From positions 124,001 through 188,000 of the IMG/VR virus record IMGVR_UViG_3300027759_004177: a stretch of 64,000 bases of DNA, one strand, 5' to 3'. The position numbers were made by a program, and so were the translations under genes. Of the stretch, positions 44,340 to 63,405 are shown in pieces. Source of the DNA: a virus. Within the stretch, counting starts at the first letter, position 1. Each line of letters begins with the position of its first letter. The notes beneath the pieces were generated by a model, which saw only the letters and a program-made list of their open reading frames with translations, searched no databases and was not told where the DNA came from.

Positions 44340-45962
<1,623 letters not shown>

Positions 45963-59718: not shown

Positions 59719-59793
59719 TGGTGCCCCTTGACAGAATCGAACTGCCAATTGATGATTACAAATCAACTGTTATACCATTTAACTAAAGGGGCC
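59719..59793 (-). tRNA. tRNA-Thr (anticodon TGT), CCA encoded
   Basis: A 75-base cloverleaf: acceptor GCCCCTT/AAGGGGC, D-stem GTTA/TAAC, anticodon loop TTTGTAA (anticodon TGT), T-arm GGCAG/CTGTC with TTCGATT, discriminator A and an encoded CCA. One mismatch (T-T) lies in the anticodon stem. It would read ACA codons. The location between an early unit and the redoxin gene fits a processed transcript. Confidence 0.88.
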
Positions 59794-60348: not shown

Positions 60349-61335
60349 TTATGCTTTGATAATTCCGTCGATTAGGCCTGGATAGAAGAAGTCGCGATAC
60401 TTGTCGTATAGCGGAGCAACAGCTTGTTTGAATTTATCTGTATCTTCTTTGTTTAGTTCTGTGTAAGTTACGCCAATGTCGCTGTGATCTTTTTTAGCAG
60501 CAAACGCTTCAGCTTCCTCAACTGACCACTTGCGTTCTAGGCGACTAGCGTATTTGCATGCTTCGCTAAACTTGGCTTGTTCATCTTCGCTTAATGTAGC
60601 TAAGAATTTGTTGCCAATAATAATACTAGTCAAGAACAAATTGTGTTTGGTGTTGACCATGTACCTCTTGCTTGTATTCTTGAACTGTGCTAGGTACCGT
60701 GGAATAGTTGTTTCGAGAGCATCGGCACCAATGCCTTCTTGTTTGAAAAAGTCTGGGTCAAGATATAGATCTCGCATTGAAAAAACTTGCGGAATAGCAC
60801 CAATGGCTTCGCAAGTGTCAACAGTTACAGGATTATTTGTTGTGGCGAACCCAATACCGCTTAGACTATCTAAATCGCTGATTGGTTTTTCGCTAACGAT
60901 ACAGCGGAATCCACCTGAATATGTAAACTCCATACCTATAGCTGGACTTTTGTCTTTTAGGCCGTCTAACATCTTACGACCAATTGGGCCTTCTAGTACA
61001 CGTTTTGCATGATCGTGATCTTGGAAAATAAACGGCATTTCCAATGCCAAAAACTCCGGGCTATGCCAACGAGCTAAATCAACAACATGCATTTGACTCA
61101 TTTGAATATCGCCGGAGTCAATTAACATCATTGGGTCAGCTTTAAAAGATAATGATGAATCTCTCATTTTTTTGTCAGGATATTTGTTGCTGTATTCTTT
61201 TAAAGTAAAAATTTCTACTTCAAATTTGCCGTCGGTTAATTCGGCAATTTTTTCTTTAAATGCTTCGGCTGTGCGTAGGAACAAATTTATAGGTTCGTGT
61301 GCGATTAACCAGGTGATTTTTTTCTTTTGATTCAT
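60349..61335 (-). CDS. TRAP-type solute-binding protein (DctP family) without signal peptide
   Basis: The product is 328 residues from ATG 61335 (GGAG upstream). Family landmarks are WLIAHEPINLFLRTAEAFKEKI, MLIDSGDIQMSQMHVVDL, EFTYSGGFRCIVSEKPI, DLDSLSGIGFATTNNPVTVDTCEAIG and DALETTIPRYLAQF. DctP proteins bind C4-dicarboxylates and related acids in the periplasm and hand them to a TRAP membrane pair. Here the domain starts at residue 5 with no export signal, so the protein should stay in the cytoplasm or act otherwise. A perfect TATAAATA late box precedes it. No TRAP membrane components are seen. Confidence 0.88.
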   Translation of the reverse strand: MNQKKKITWLIAHEPINLFLRTAEAFKEKIAELTDGKFEVEIFTLKEYSNKYPDKKMRDSSLSFKADPMMLIDSGDIQMSQMHVVDLARWHSPEFLALEMPFIFQDHDHAKRVLEGPIGRKMLDGLKDKSPAIGMEFTYSGGFRCIVSEKPISDLDSLSGIGFATTNNPVTVDTCEAIGAIPQVFSMRDLYLDPDFFKQEGIGADALETTIPRYLAQFKNTSKRYMVNTKHNLFLTSIIIGNKFLATLSEDEQAKFSEACKYASRLERKWSVEEAEAFAAKKDHSDIGVTYTELNKEDTDKFKQAVAPLYDKYRDFFYPGLIDGIIKA

Positions 61336-61364
61336 GGGATTCTCCAATAGGATTTTGTATTATA

Positions 61365-61372: not shown

Positions 61373-61388
61373 CTTGCGCCTAGGATTC

Positions 61389-61644
61389 AATAAGTTTGGG
61401 CACATTAAAATCTGCTTTTCGACTGTGGACCACAATGCCAACGGGTCGCTATCCCGCATTAAATGGCTTGCTCTCCCGAGCATTTTTCATGGAATCTCGA
61501 TCGCTGTTGCTGTTTTAAAATTGCTTGTACCCTCGGGAGTACCCGATTTAACATGTCATGCCACGGGGCCAATACTACATACTGCAACAGGACTACCACA
61601 AGTATCAGATGGTCGCCACACCATGTGCCCAAACTTATTAACTC
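61389..61644 (-). ncRNA. Candidate structured phage RNA closed by a 17-bp terminal stem
   Basis: About 250 bases without a plausible gene. A perfect 17-base inverted repeat bounds it: AATAAGTTTGGGCACAT at 61389-61405 (plus strand) and its exact reverse complement at 61623-61639. Inside are two hairpins at 61527-61542 and 61469-61482 whose apical segments contain mutually complementary CTCGGGAG and CTCCCGAG, hinting at a kissing interaction; a 7-base long-range pairing of 61504-61510 with 61584-61590; and small hairpins at 61442-61456 and 61424-61434. A sigma70-like promoter at 61652-61680 on the minus strand places a start point about 61644, five bases before the closing stem. No T-run terminator follows. 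Plus-strand transcription cannot be excluded. Confidence 0.55.
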
Positions 61645-61651
61645 GTATACT

Positions 61652-61680
61652 AGTATACACTATATGTCTATGTTATGCAA
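61652..61680 (-). promoter_or_regulatory. Sigma70-like promoter with palindromic operator-like overlap
   Basis: Minus-strand TTGCAT, 17-base spacer, TATACT. The -10 lies within a perfect 14-base palindrome GTATACTAGTATAC (61645-61658), which could bind a dimeric repressor. The -35 overlaps the end of the gene at 61673. Confidence 0.55.
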
Positions 61681-62056
61681 CCCAGCCCTGTCCGGAAATT
61701 GCATGGAACCAGGGATAAAATGAGCTGGGGATATCAAACTGCCATGTACCTTCCTGATCAATCCATGCTGTTGGTGGCTGTGCCAAATGTTGATATCGTG
61801 GTAATACTTCTGTACCGTTTACTGTTAGCGATTTGATTTCAACTGCACCGCCACGAGGTTCAATTACACGACACTTTAAATGCACAGAAGATAGCAAATC
61901 AAATGTGTGTATTGTATCTGTTTCGGCAATTAAATGTCCATTGAGACGCATACGATAATGTATGTTGCCGTGGGCAACTATGACCAATCGTACTTGCAAT
62001 TGATCCGGGGTTTTAATATCCAATACGTCGGAGAAAGTGTTTATATCTTGGTGCAT
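61673..62056 (-). CDS. Small beta-sandwich-like partner of the radical SAM gene
   Basis: This 127-residue protein looks all-beta: VRLVIVAHGNIHYRMRLNGHLI, HTFDLLSSVHLKCRVIEPRGGAVEIKSLTVNG, and a C-terminal WQFDIPSSFYPWFHAISGQGWVA rich in aromatic residues. It overlaps the radical SAM gene by 44 bases, so the two are surely expressed together and may interact. The sequence could be the substrate or the recognition subunit of that enzyme. No family recognised. Confidence 0.6.
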   Translation of the reverse strand: MHQDINTFSDVLDIKTPDQLQVRLVIVAHGNIHYRMRLNGHLIAETDTIHTFDLLSSVHLKCRVIEPRGGAVEIKSLTVNGTEVLPRYQHLAQPPTAWIDQEGTWQFDIPSSFYPWFHAISGQGWVA

Positions 62057-63308
62057 AATCTAGTATCGTGTTGTTCCTGATTGTTTCAAAACTTTTTAAG
62101 AAACTGACTAATTCTTTCAGTGATTCCTCTGCATCTGCAGGCGGGGTGTATGTTTTAACAAACTCCAGGTACTCAGTGGCCAACTGTGCAATAATCTCGT
62201 GACTTAAATCACTTCTGCGAGTATTCACTTGCGGAGTATACGATCCTAATCGATCAACCACAGCCTGTAACTTTGCAACGGTTTCTTGTCTGATATCGTC
62301 TGGCATCAGTTCCATACGCAAACAACGTGGTTGGTGCAATATGTTACAGCTCTCGGCGATAATGTTGTGTTCGATCATGAACTCAAAAACTTGGTCCAGT
62401 TCGCTGATAGTAAACAAGTTAGGAGTGATACGTAGTTCTAGTTTTAATCCGGGATTACGATCACGCAAGGCCACAAACTTGAGAATGTTTGCCAAGATCT
62501 GATCAGTAGGTCCTGGATAACGCACATAATCGTTTAATGACGTAACTGACTCTATACTGATACCTAGATGAAACTCTTGGAATCTAGGTATCAATTGTTC
62601 TATACGTTCATCGTATATTGTGCCGTTGGTAGTTGTGCCAACTATTAGATCTTGTCCATCCAAGTGCTCGCAAATGTCGTAGAAGGCTTGATTATATAAT
62701 GTTTCTCCACCCAGGAAGTGTATGTAACGTATGTATGGAAACGATTTTAACTCTGCAACAAAGCGATTGACTGTTGCTGAATCTTCAGTCCAAGACTGAT
62801 ACGGCTTGGGTTCAGCAAATAATCGACTATCCAGCTTGTTTAATTTTTTATAGTCTGCAACAAGACGTGAGCTTGCTGTGGGGTCGCACATGATACAGGC
62901 ACTATTACAAGTATTACCTAGGTCTATTTGTAAATCTGTTGGAAAATGTGGGCTGGCACCCGCATGACTGTTGCTGTATTCAAATACAGGCAAGTGTGGG
63001 CTAGAACGAAAGGTTAATGGAAACTCTGCAAGACCAATAGCACTTTTGTTTAGTTGTCTAACACGACCCGAAAGTTTTCCAAACTGATCTTGGTAGTAAC
63101 AAGGCTCACACTCTTTGGGTTTGTTGCCGGCTAATAGTTGTTGACGCAGGTCTCTCATGGGCCCACTGTTGTAAAAATCCATCAGCGAAGTTGTGCGTAT
63201 GTTGAAGGCGGTAGCACCGTTTTTGCTCCAGCGACACACATCATAACTACCATCGTAAGTTAATCTAATGTGGAACCAGGGACTTGAACAGAATGAGTCT
63301 TTTAACAT
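62013..63308 (-). CDS. Twitch/SPASM-type radical SAM enzyme
   Basis: This 431-residue protein has the core motif C-x3-C-x2-C in IDLGNTCNSACIMCDPT (residues about 128-143), IHFLGGETLYN as the G-G-E strand, and LGISIESVTSLNDYVRYPG. An N-terminal region with Cys residues (DSFCSSPWFHIRL, YDVCRWSKNG, PKECEPCYYQDQFG) resembles an auxiliary SPASM/twitch cluster segment moved to the front. Such enzymes with related order are common in marine phages and modify peptides or sugars. It needs Fe-S clusters, which the phage IscU/IscA could supply. A tRNA-Ser lies eight bases upstream of its ATG. Confidence 0.88.
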   Translation of the reverse strand: MLKDSFCSSPWFHIRLTYDGSYDVCRWSKNGATAFNIRTTSLMDFYNSGPMRDLRQQLLAGNKPKECEPCYYQDQFGKLSGRVRQLNKSAIGLAEFPLTFRSSPHLPVFEYSNSHAGASPHFPTDLQIDLGNTCNSACIMCDPTASSRLVADYKKLNKLDSRLFAEPKPYQSWTEDSATVNRFVAELKSFPYIRYIHFLGGETLYNQAFYDICEHLDGQDLIVGTTTNGTIYDERIEQLIPRFQEFHLGISIESVTSLNDYVRYPGPTDQILANILKFVALRDRNPGLKLELRITPNLFTISELDQVFEFMIEHNIIAESCNILHQPRCLRMELMPDDIRQETVAKLQAVVDRLGSYTPQVNTRRSDLSHEIIAQLATEYLEFVKTYTPPADAEESLKELVSFLKSFETIRNNTILDYAPRYKHFLRRIGY

Positions 63309-63315
63309 AATTATA

Positions 63316-63405
63316 TGGCGGAGAGTGTGAGATTCGAACTCACGATAGTGTTGCCACTATGCCGGTTTAGTAGACCGGTGCCTTCAGCCGCTCGGCCAAC
63401 TCTCC
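63316..63405 (-). tRNA. tRNA-Ser (anticodon ACT), CCA encoded
   Basis: A 90-base class II tRNA: acceptor GGAGAGT/ACTCTCC with G discriminator and CCA, D-arm GCC/GGC, anticodon stem CCGGT/ACCGG with loop CTACTAA (anticodon ACT), a long variable arm ATAGTG-GCAA-CACTAT, and T-arm GTGAG/CTCAC with TTCGAAT. Serine identity (long variable arm, G73) is clear. Anticodon ACT with A at position 34 is very unusual; bacteria normally read AGT/AGC with GCT. Confidence 0.88.

Follow-up and report, generated by a model that had tools for sequence, protein, structure and literature searches.

A family of structured noncoding RNAs in the tRNA-array neighbourhood of jumbo phages

The locus and its neighbourhood

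The DNA analysed here, referred to as the window, is a stretch of 64,000 nucleotides that corresponds to bases 124001-188000 of the 356,865-base IMG/VR record IMGVR_UViG_3300027759_004177. Its genes point to a large tailed phage and include those for minor head proteins, a DnaB-type helicase, ribonucleotide reductase and GroEL. The helicase is ~45% identical to its counterparts in Agrobacterium phage Atu_ph07 and Pseudomonas phage PA5oct, and the phage-encoded GroEL (44340-45959, minus strand; PHROG E 2.4e-182) has its nearest clear phage match in Vibrio phage 2.275.O, at 60% identity. All 12 tRNA genes of the record are encoded on the minus strand, from 183.7 to 202.0 kb, and the RNA described here is located among them on the same strand, at 185.4-185.6 kb. 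Features of the locus are collected in Table 1.

The initial annotation of this region had proposed an undescribed structured RNA of ~250 nt, bounded by a perfect 17-base inverted repeat and filling the only gene-free stretch over 300 bases in the window. ORF tiling gives a gap of 485 nt, the next largest being 209 nt, and the repeat is present; the window has no second one of such length within 300 nt (Markov control, 0). The coordinates proposed for the RNA were right, but the RNA lies on the minus strand. Single-sequence folding of the whole minus-strand RNA was more favorable than that of shuffled sequences (z -3.77), while the interior without its closing stem folded no better than shuffles (z -0.22). 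Fold energy alone would thus not carry the claim of a structured RNA, and the proof comes from comparative evidence.

Two neighbouring genes on the minus strand deserve mention in their own right. The first (60349-61347) encodes a DctP/TRAP-type solute-binding protein (Pfam E 1.4e-36) whose translation begins without an obvious signal peptide; such a gene is unusual for a phage and its product has perhaps been repurposed. DctP homologues also adjoin the RNA in two of its relatives, L048 and L100. The second (62013-63308) encodes a Radical SAM/SPASM-like protein of 431 amino acids with relatives in more than 30 IMG/VR contigs. This gene is usually followed by an ORF of ~127 amino acids that overlaps its end, and the two products possibly form a modifying pair. 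Among the records containing radical-SAM relatives, which are mostly fragments, the RNA was found only in L005, L006 and the G009 record.

Table 1. Coordinates of the RNA, its helices and adjacent features in the window
Feature	Position	Strand	Basis
Structured RNA, ~255 nt (model positions 1-256)	61387..61641	-	cmsearch with R1, 265.5 bits, E 1.3e-81 (window sequence belonged to the R1 training set)
Candidate sigma-70-type promoter, TTGCAT-17-TATACT	61652..61680	-	Sequence; equivalents in 8 further lineages
P1 closing stem, 5' strand, AAUAAGUUUGGGCACAU	61623..61639	-	Perfect 17-bp inverted repeat
P1 closing stem, 3' strand, AUGUGCCCAAACUUAUU	61389..61405	-	Perfect 17-bp inverted repeat
P2 hairpin, GGU-GUGGCG-ACC, loop nearly invariant	61611..61622	-	Covariation
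P3 5' strand, AUCUG; partner CAGAU at 61410-61414	61606..61610	-	Covariation
P4 5' strand, AC-N-U-GUGG, bulged U; partner CCAC-N'-GU at 61422-61428	61596..61603	-	Covariation
P5 region, arms 61581-61590 and 61504-61513, around P6, P7 and P8	61504..61590	-	Covariation
P8 hairpin, UCGGG-UACU-CCCGA, most conserved element	61533..61546	-	Comparison
P9, CCAUGA (61488-61493) with UUGUGG (61430-61435), around P10, P11 and P12	61430..61493	-	Comparison
P10 hairpin, GCUC-GGGA-GAGC	61470..61481	-	Comparison
P12 hairpin, GCGGG-AUAGCGA-CCCGU	61441..61457	-	Covariation
tRNA-Ser, 5' of the RNA	63316..63405	-	ARAGORN and Rfam
tRNA-Thr(TGT), 3' of the RNA	59719..59792	-	ARAGORN and Rfam

Relatives of the RNA and the conservation of its fold

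An exact scan with one arm of the repeat found two contigs, and in one of them, L003, the sequence was 78% identical over exactly the extent of the RNA, with unrelated flanks. Three conserved stretches used as scan patterns led to eleven aligned versions, from which the covariance model R1 was built. With R1, a member that had not gone into the model was recovered from a phage contig of 374 kb (E 2.5e-50), and a pattern based on P8 led to the most distant members, L100, L102, L096 and L112 (E 1e-52 to 5e-10); these E-values are rough, the calibration having been short. Altogether, pattern and covariance-model searches place the RNA in 20 IMG/VR phage contigs, which are metagenome assemblies, as 16 distinct full-length versions and one partial version. 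Pairwise identity among thirteen versions ranges from 59 to 99%. A match to the core only (25 bits over 43 nt with R1, 36 bits with R2) occurs in L095, which is probably a member of the family. It sits on the minus strand in a 311-nt gap (2037-2347) of a dense tRNA array, where only the P6-P8 core and a GUUGAAAAGCC motif are recognizable, and it may be a distant relative whose periphery differs.

Beyond IMG/VR, the searches took in one genome per species as well as deposited phages. BLASTN comparison of several members with deposited phages returned short chance matches only. Of two pattern scans across 84,980 genomes of bacteria and archaea, the first yielded none and the second three matches, which were rejected by the model. 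R1 or R2 gave no convincing match in T4, Atu_ph07, PA5oct, RaK2, 121Q, phage G, XacN1, CcrColossus or two Vibrio jumbo phages, stricter filters having been applied in the R1 run.

Comparison of these sequences supports twelve helices comprising 70 base pairs. Double changes were found among the homologues in 11 of the 12 helices, the exception being P6, which varies on one side only. Across sixteen sequences, both sides have changed in 46 of the 70 pairs, versus 21.2 ± 2.8 after shuffling and no more than 13 when partners were slid, and 96.4% of cells are paired. Covariance-model alignments lean toward the model structure, but the first alignment (A2), made from eleven sequences with MAFFT, gave the same result: 32 of 70 pairs had changed on both sides, versus 11.9 ± 2.1 when shuffled, and pairing fell from 97% to about 36-40% once partners were displaced by 1-3 columns. 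Five members outside the derivation of the structure contribute 13-21 double changes each that are kept as standard pairs, in an alignment that was model-guided and so favours the structure somewhat. The excess of G-U cells (87) over A-C cells (4) identifies the minus strand as the functional RNA strand. A coding explanation was rejected, as counts of stops per frame revealed no reading frame open across the family.

The architecture that sequence comparison shows to be conserved consists of an 18-bp closing stem, P1, followed by a nested spine of P3 and P4 with a bulged U, the P2 hairpin with its GUGGCG loop, and two arms, P5-P8 and P9-P12. In P1, both sides have changed in 14 of 18 pairs across the 16 sequences. 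All three pairs of P2 covary (GGU/ACC, GGC/GCC, AGU/ACU and AAC/GUU), four of the five pairs of P3 show double changes with 100% of cells paired, and the N-N' pair beside the bulged U of P4 is U-A, A-U, C-G or G-C in different phages. P5 covaries at 5/5 pairs, its register in the window being shifted to CUGUUGC/GCAACAG, as does P12 (5/5 pairs; 98.6% of cells paired). A G-C/A-U exchange divides the sixteen P8 sequences 7 to 9, with every cell paired, and the P10 loop is a GNRA tetraloop in most relatives. Single-stranded residues are conserved as well: thirteen sequences show no change in 40 of 114 unpaired columns, about a third, a pattern suggestive of a partner or of tertiary contacts. The conserved helices are nested, and a helix search for an extra pseudoknot found no well-supported crossing helix.

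Two other elements of the initial annotation exist in the window but proved to be local accidents rather than conserved parts of the RNA. The 8-base loop complement CTCCCGAG/CTCGGGAG, which had been read as a kissing interaction, occurs only in the window sequence and a 99% identical twin, and most relatives have hairpins of the GCCU-GNRA-AGGC type in its place. The 14-base palindrome over the -10 box (61645-61658) is confined to the window, L005 and L006. The window RNA also contains a 10-nt pairing (90%), CTGTTGCTGT/ACTGCAACAG.

A long terminal inverted repeat might instead mark a mobile element, small, non-autonomous and bounded by 17-base ends, and the exact gene-level position of the RNA does shift among relatives. 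This explanation retains only the faintest probability. Each of 15 records with an R1 match contains one match, as does the window's own genome; the 260-kb G050 record has a second match that is marginal and partial (E 0.005-0.026). The repeat is single copy, does not surround unrelated DNA, and is found elsewhere only together with the same RNA, so that a transposable unit is not supported. Moreover, the P1 arms change together while the interior is conserved, the opposite of what is seen in a MITE, and the position of the RNA is tied to the tRNA array.

Genomic placement and predicted expression

In the five records examined, the RNA resides within a tRNA array or no more than ~7 kb away from one, on the array strand; across the family its usual place is the edge of the tRNA gene cluster. 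It belongs to the phage tRNA-array neighbourhood, a point absent from the initial annotation. In most relatives the RNA comes immediately after a tRNA-Ser gene, and tRNA-Thr(TGT) is the next tRNA downstream; where both flanking tRNAs are seen, they are likewise mostly tRNA-Ser and tRNA-Thr(UGU), respectively. The epimerase, redoxin-like and DctP genes that neighbour the RNA in the window reappear around it in L100, where the RNA occupies another position within the group. This pattern fits vertical descent combined with local rearrangement.

Two kinds of placement can be recognized. In one the RNA follows a tRNA, in most cases tRNA-Ser, at a distance of 4-9 nt; in the other a sigma-70-type -10 box immediately precedes it. 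Seven versions (L003, L051/L052, L049/L054, L055, L056, L058 and L102) start 4-9 nt past a complete tRNA gene, which is tRNA-Ser in all except L003, where it is tRNA-Val. Because the flanking tRNA genes are complete, the RNA is not an intron within them. The lineages without a close tRNA are window/L005, L006, L048, L050, L059, L075/L078, L096, L100 and L112, and in 9/9 of these a sigma-70-like -10 box precedes the RNA at short distance. It was read directly from the sequence in L096 and abuts the aligned RNA start in L112. The predicted promoters, some of them near consensus (L050, for instance), include TTGACA-17-TATACT in L050, TTGACT-17-TATAAT in L059, TTGACA-17-TAAAAT in L100 and TTGACT-17-TAAAAT in L112. 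These calls are matches to the sigma-70 consensus, not measured starts, and single promoter sites are common by chance, so the weight rests on the matching position in nine lineages. The promoter proposed in the initial annotation is present in the window sequence, and the family as a whole suggests that the RNA has a promoter of its own wherever an adjacent tRNA is missing. L100 has the arrangement of a complete unit, in which a promoter match and the RNA are followed by a 7-bp intrinsic terminator, ~6 nt beyond the end of the RNA, and then by a convergent gene. Synthesis would be carried out by a host-type RNA polymerase, either from this promoter or within a tRNA precursor, and the RNA ends would be defined by the transcription start or by nucleases that process tRNAs, and clamped together by P1.

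On the 3' side, tRNA-Thr follows within about 25 nt in L003, L050, L055, L056 and L102, and other genes follow in L059, L096, L075 and L112. An AU-rich stretch, AGTATTAAATA or close to it, separates the RNA from tRNA-Thr in L003, L050, L055 and L056 and is a possible nuclease processing site. In the divergent members L059 and L096, the product of the 3' gene begins with an FGDSY motif and appears by eye to be SGNH-hydrolase-like.

The position of the RNA just 5' of the DctP gene in the window, L006 and L048 could also be that of a cis-acting leader, such as a riboswitch or thermometer, controlling the downstream gene (here, the DctP-type gene). A leader should keep its gene, whereas the downstream feature changes from tRNA-Thr in five versions to other genes in four, and the terminator and convergent gene that follow the RNA in L100 bring this reading close to refutation; we consider it very improbable. 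A free-standing gene, conserved in fold and loops while its downstream features vary, instead argues for a stable, trans-acting RNA.

Relationship to known RNAs and possible role

The window RNA is unmatched in Rfam at gathering and permissive thresholds, and five diverse relatives reach chance-level scores at most. The models for GOLLD, ROOL, RNase P and 6S RNA match neither the window RNA nor these relatives, ARAGORN finds no tmRNA, and literature searches identified no described family that fits. The initial annotation likewise recognized no known class, and the family is new in sequence and structure relative to Rfam 15. Such models might have missed an RNA that has diverged far within a known class (RNase P RNA, tmRNA, 6S, GOLLD, ROOL or a group I intron), and the tRNA-array setting would fit RNase P, GOLLD or ROOL. 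Resemblance to RNase P RNA extends to the closing stem, the long-range helix with a bulged U and the tRNA context, and the size is similar to that of small RNase P RNAs. However, RNase P RNA has a P2/P4 pseudoknot, whereas the helices here are nested in P1/P3/P4 order without it. Together with the chance-level Rfam scores of the window RNA and its diverse relatives, even at the permissive threshold, this makes a diverged known class very improbable.

In setting, the RNA is comparable to other phage RNAs to which the tests run indicate no relationship. The T4 RNAs rnaC and rnaD (species 1 and 2 RNA) are likewise small stable RNAs encoded beside a tRNA cluster on the same strand. For the RNA described here, processing from a tRNA-cluster transcript would be compatible with the placement of seven versions 4-9 nt behind a tRNA. 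They are only 139 and 119 nt in length, however, and R1, with its stricter filters, finds nothing in T4 (NC_000866). GOLLD, a large structured noncoding RNA, occurs in phages and prophages and often lies near tRNA islands, as does ROOL; both form RNA-only cages, and their functions are unknown (PMC12286853). With GOLLD the likeness is one of shared setting, not homology. Many GOLLD RNAs exceed 800 nt, versus ~255 nt here. The solved ROOL example is a nanocage of 659 nt (PMC12286853), while the present RNA has under half that length. In phage ICP1, the most abundant transcript is a noncoding RNA of ~800 nt that its authors liken to GOLLD and ROOL (PMC7567579). The best reading is a new family of this loose kind, phage tRNA-array RNAs, that is a member of none of those named.

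The proposal of an undescribed structured RNA is thus borne out by homologues, covariation and the lack of an Rfam match, and it is practically certain that a genuine structured RNA gene occupies this locus. As an explanation of the whole, a free-standing noncoding RNA gene of a new family in jumbo phages has a probability of about 0.93. What the RNA does is a more tentative matter. During infection the stable fold may act in trans, with its conserved loops binding a protein or an RNP; this is the weak step of the proposal, and its odds fall somewhat short of even. The tRNA-array setting makes tRNA or the translation machinery the first candidate target. More doubtful still is the idea of a new functional class (a ribozyme, an RNP scaffold or an RNA assembly) used on the host tRNA or translation machinery, in which the conserved loops GUGGCG, P8 UACU, AUUUUA and CGAAAAG would form the functional core. 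The RNA, with a length of ~255 nt that is far below that of GOLLD or ROOL, is correspondingly easier to make, probe and solve, and the alignment and covariance model make it findable in other genomes and transcriptomes, so that the question of its role becomes testable. The few structured RNAs described from phage tRNA arrays thus gain a family that covariation strongly supports.
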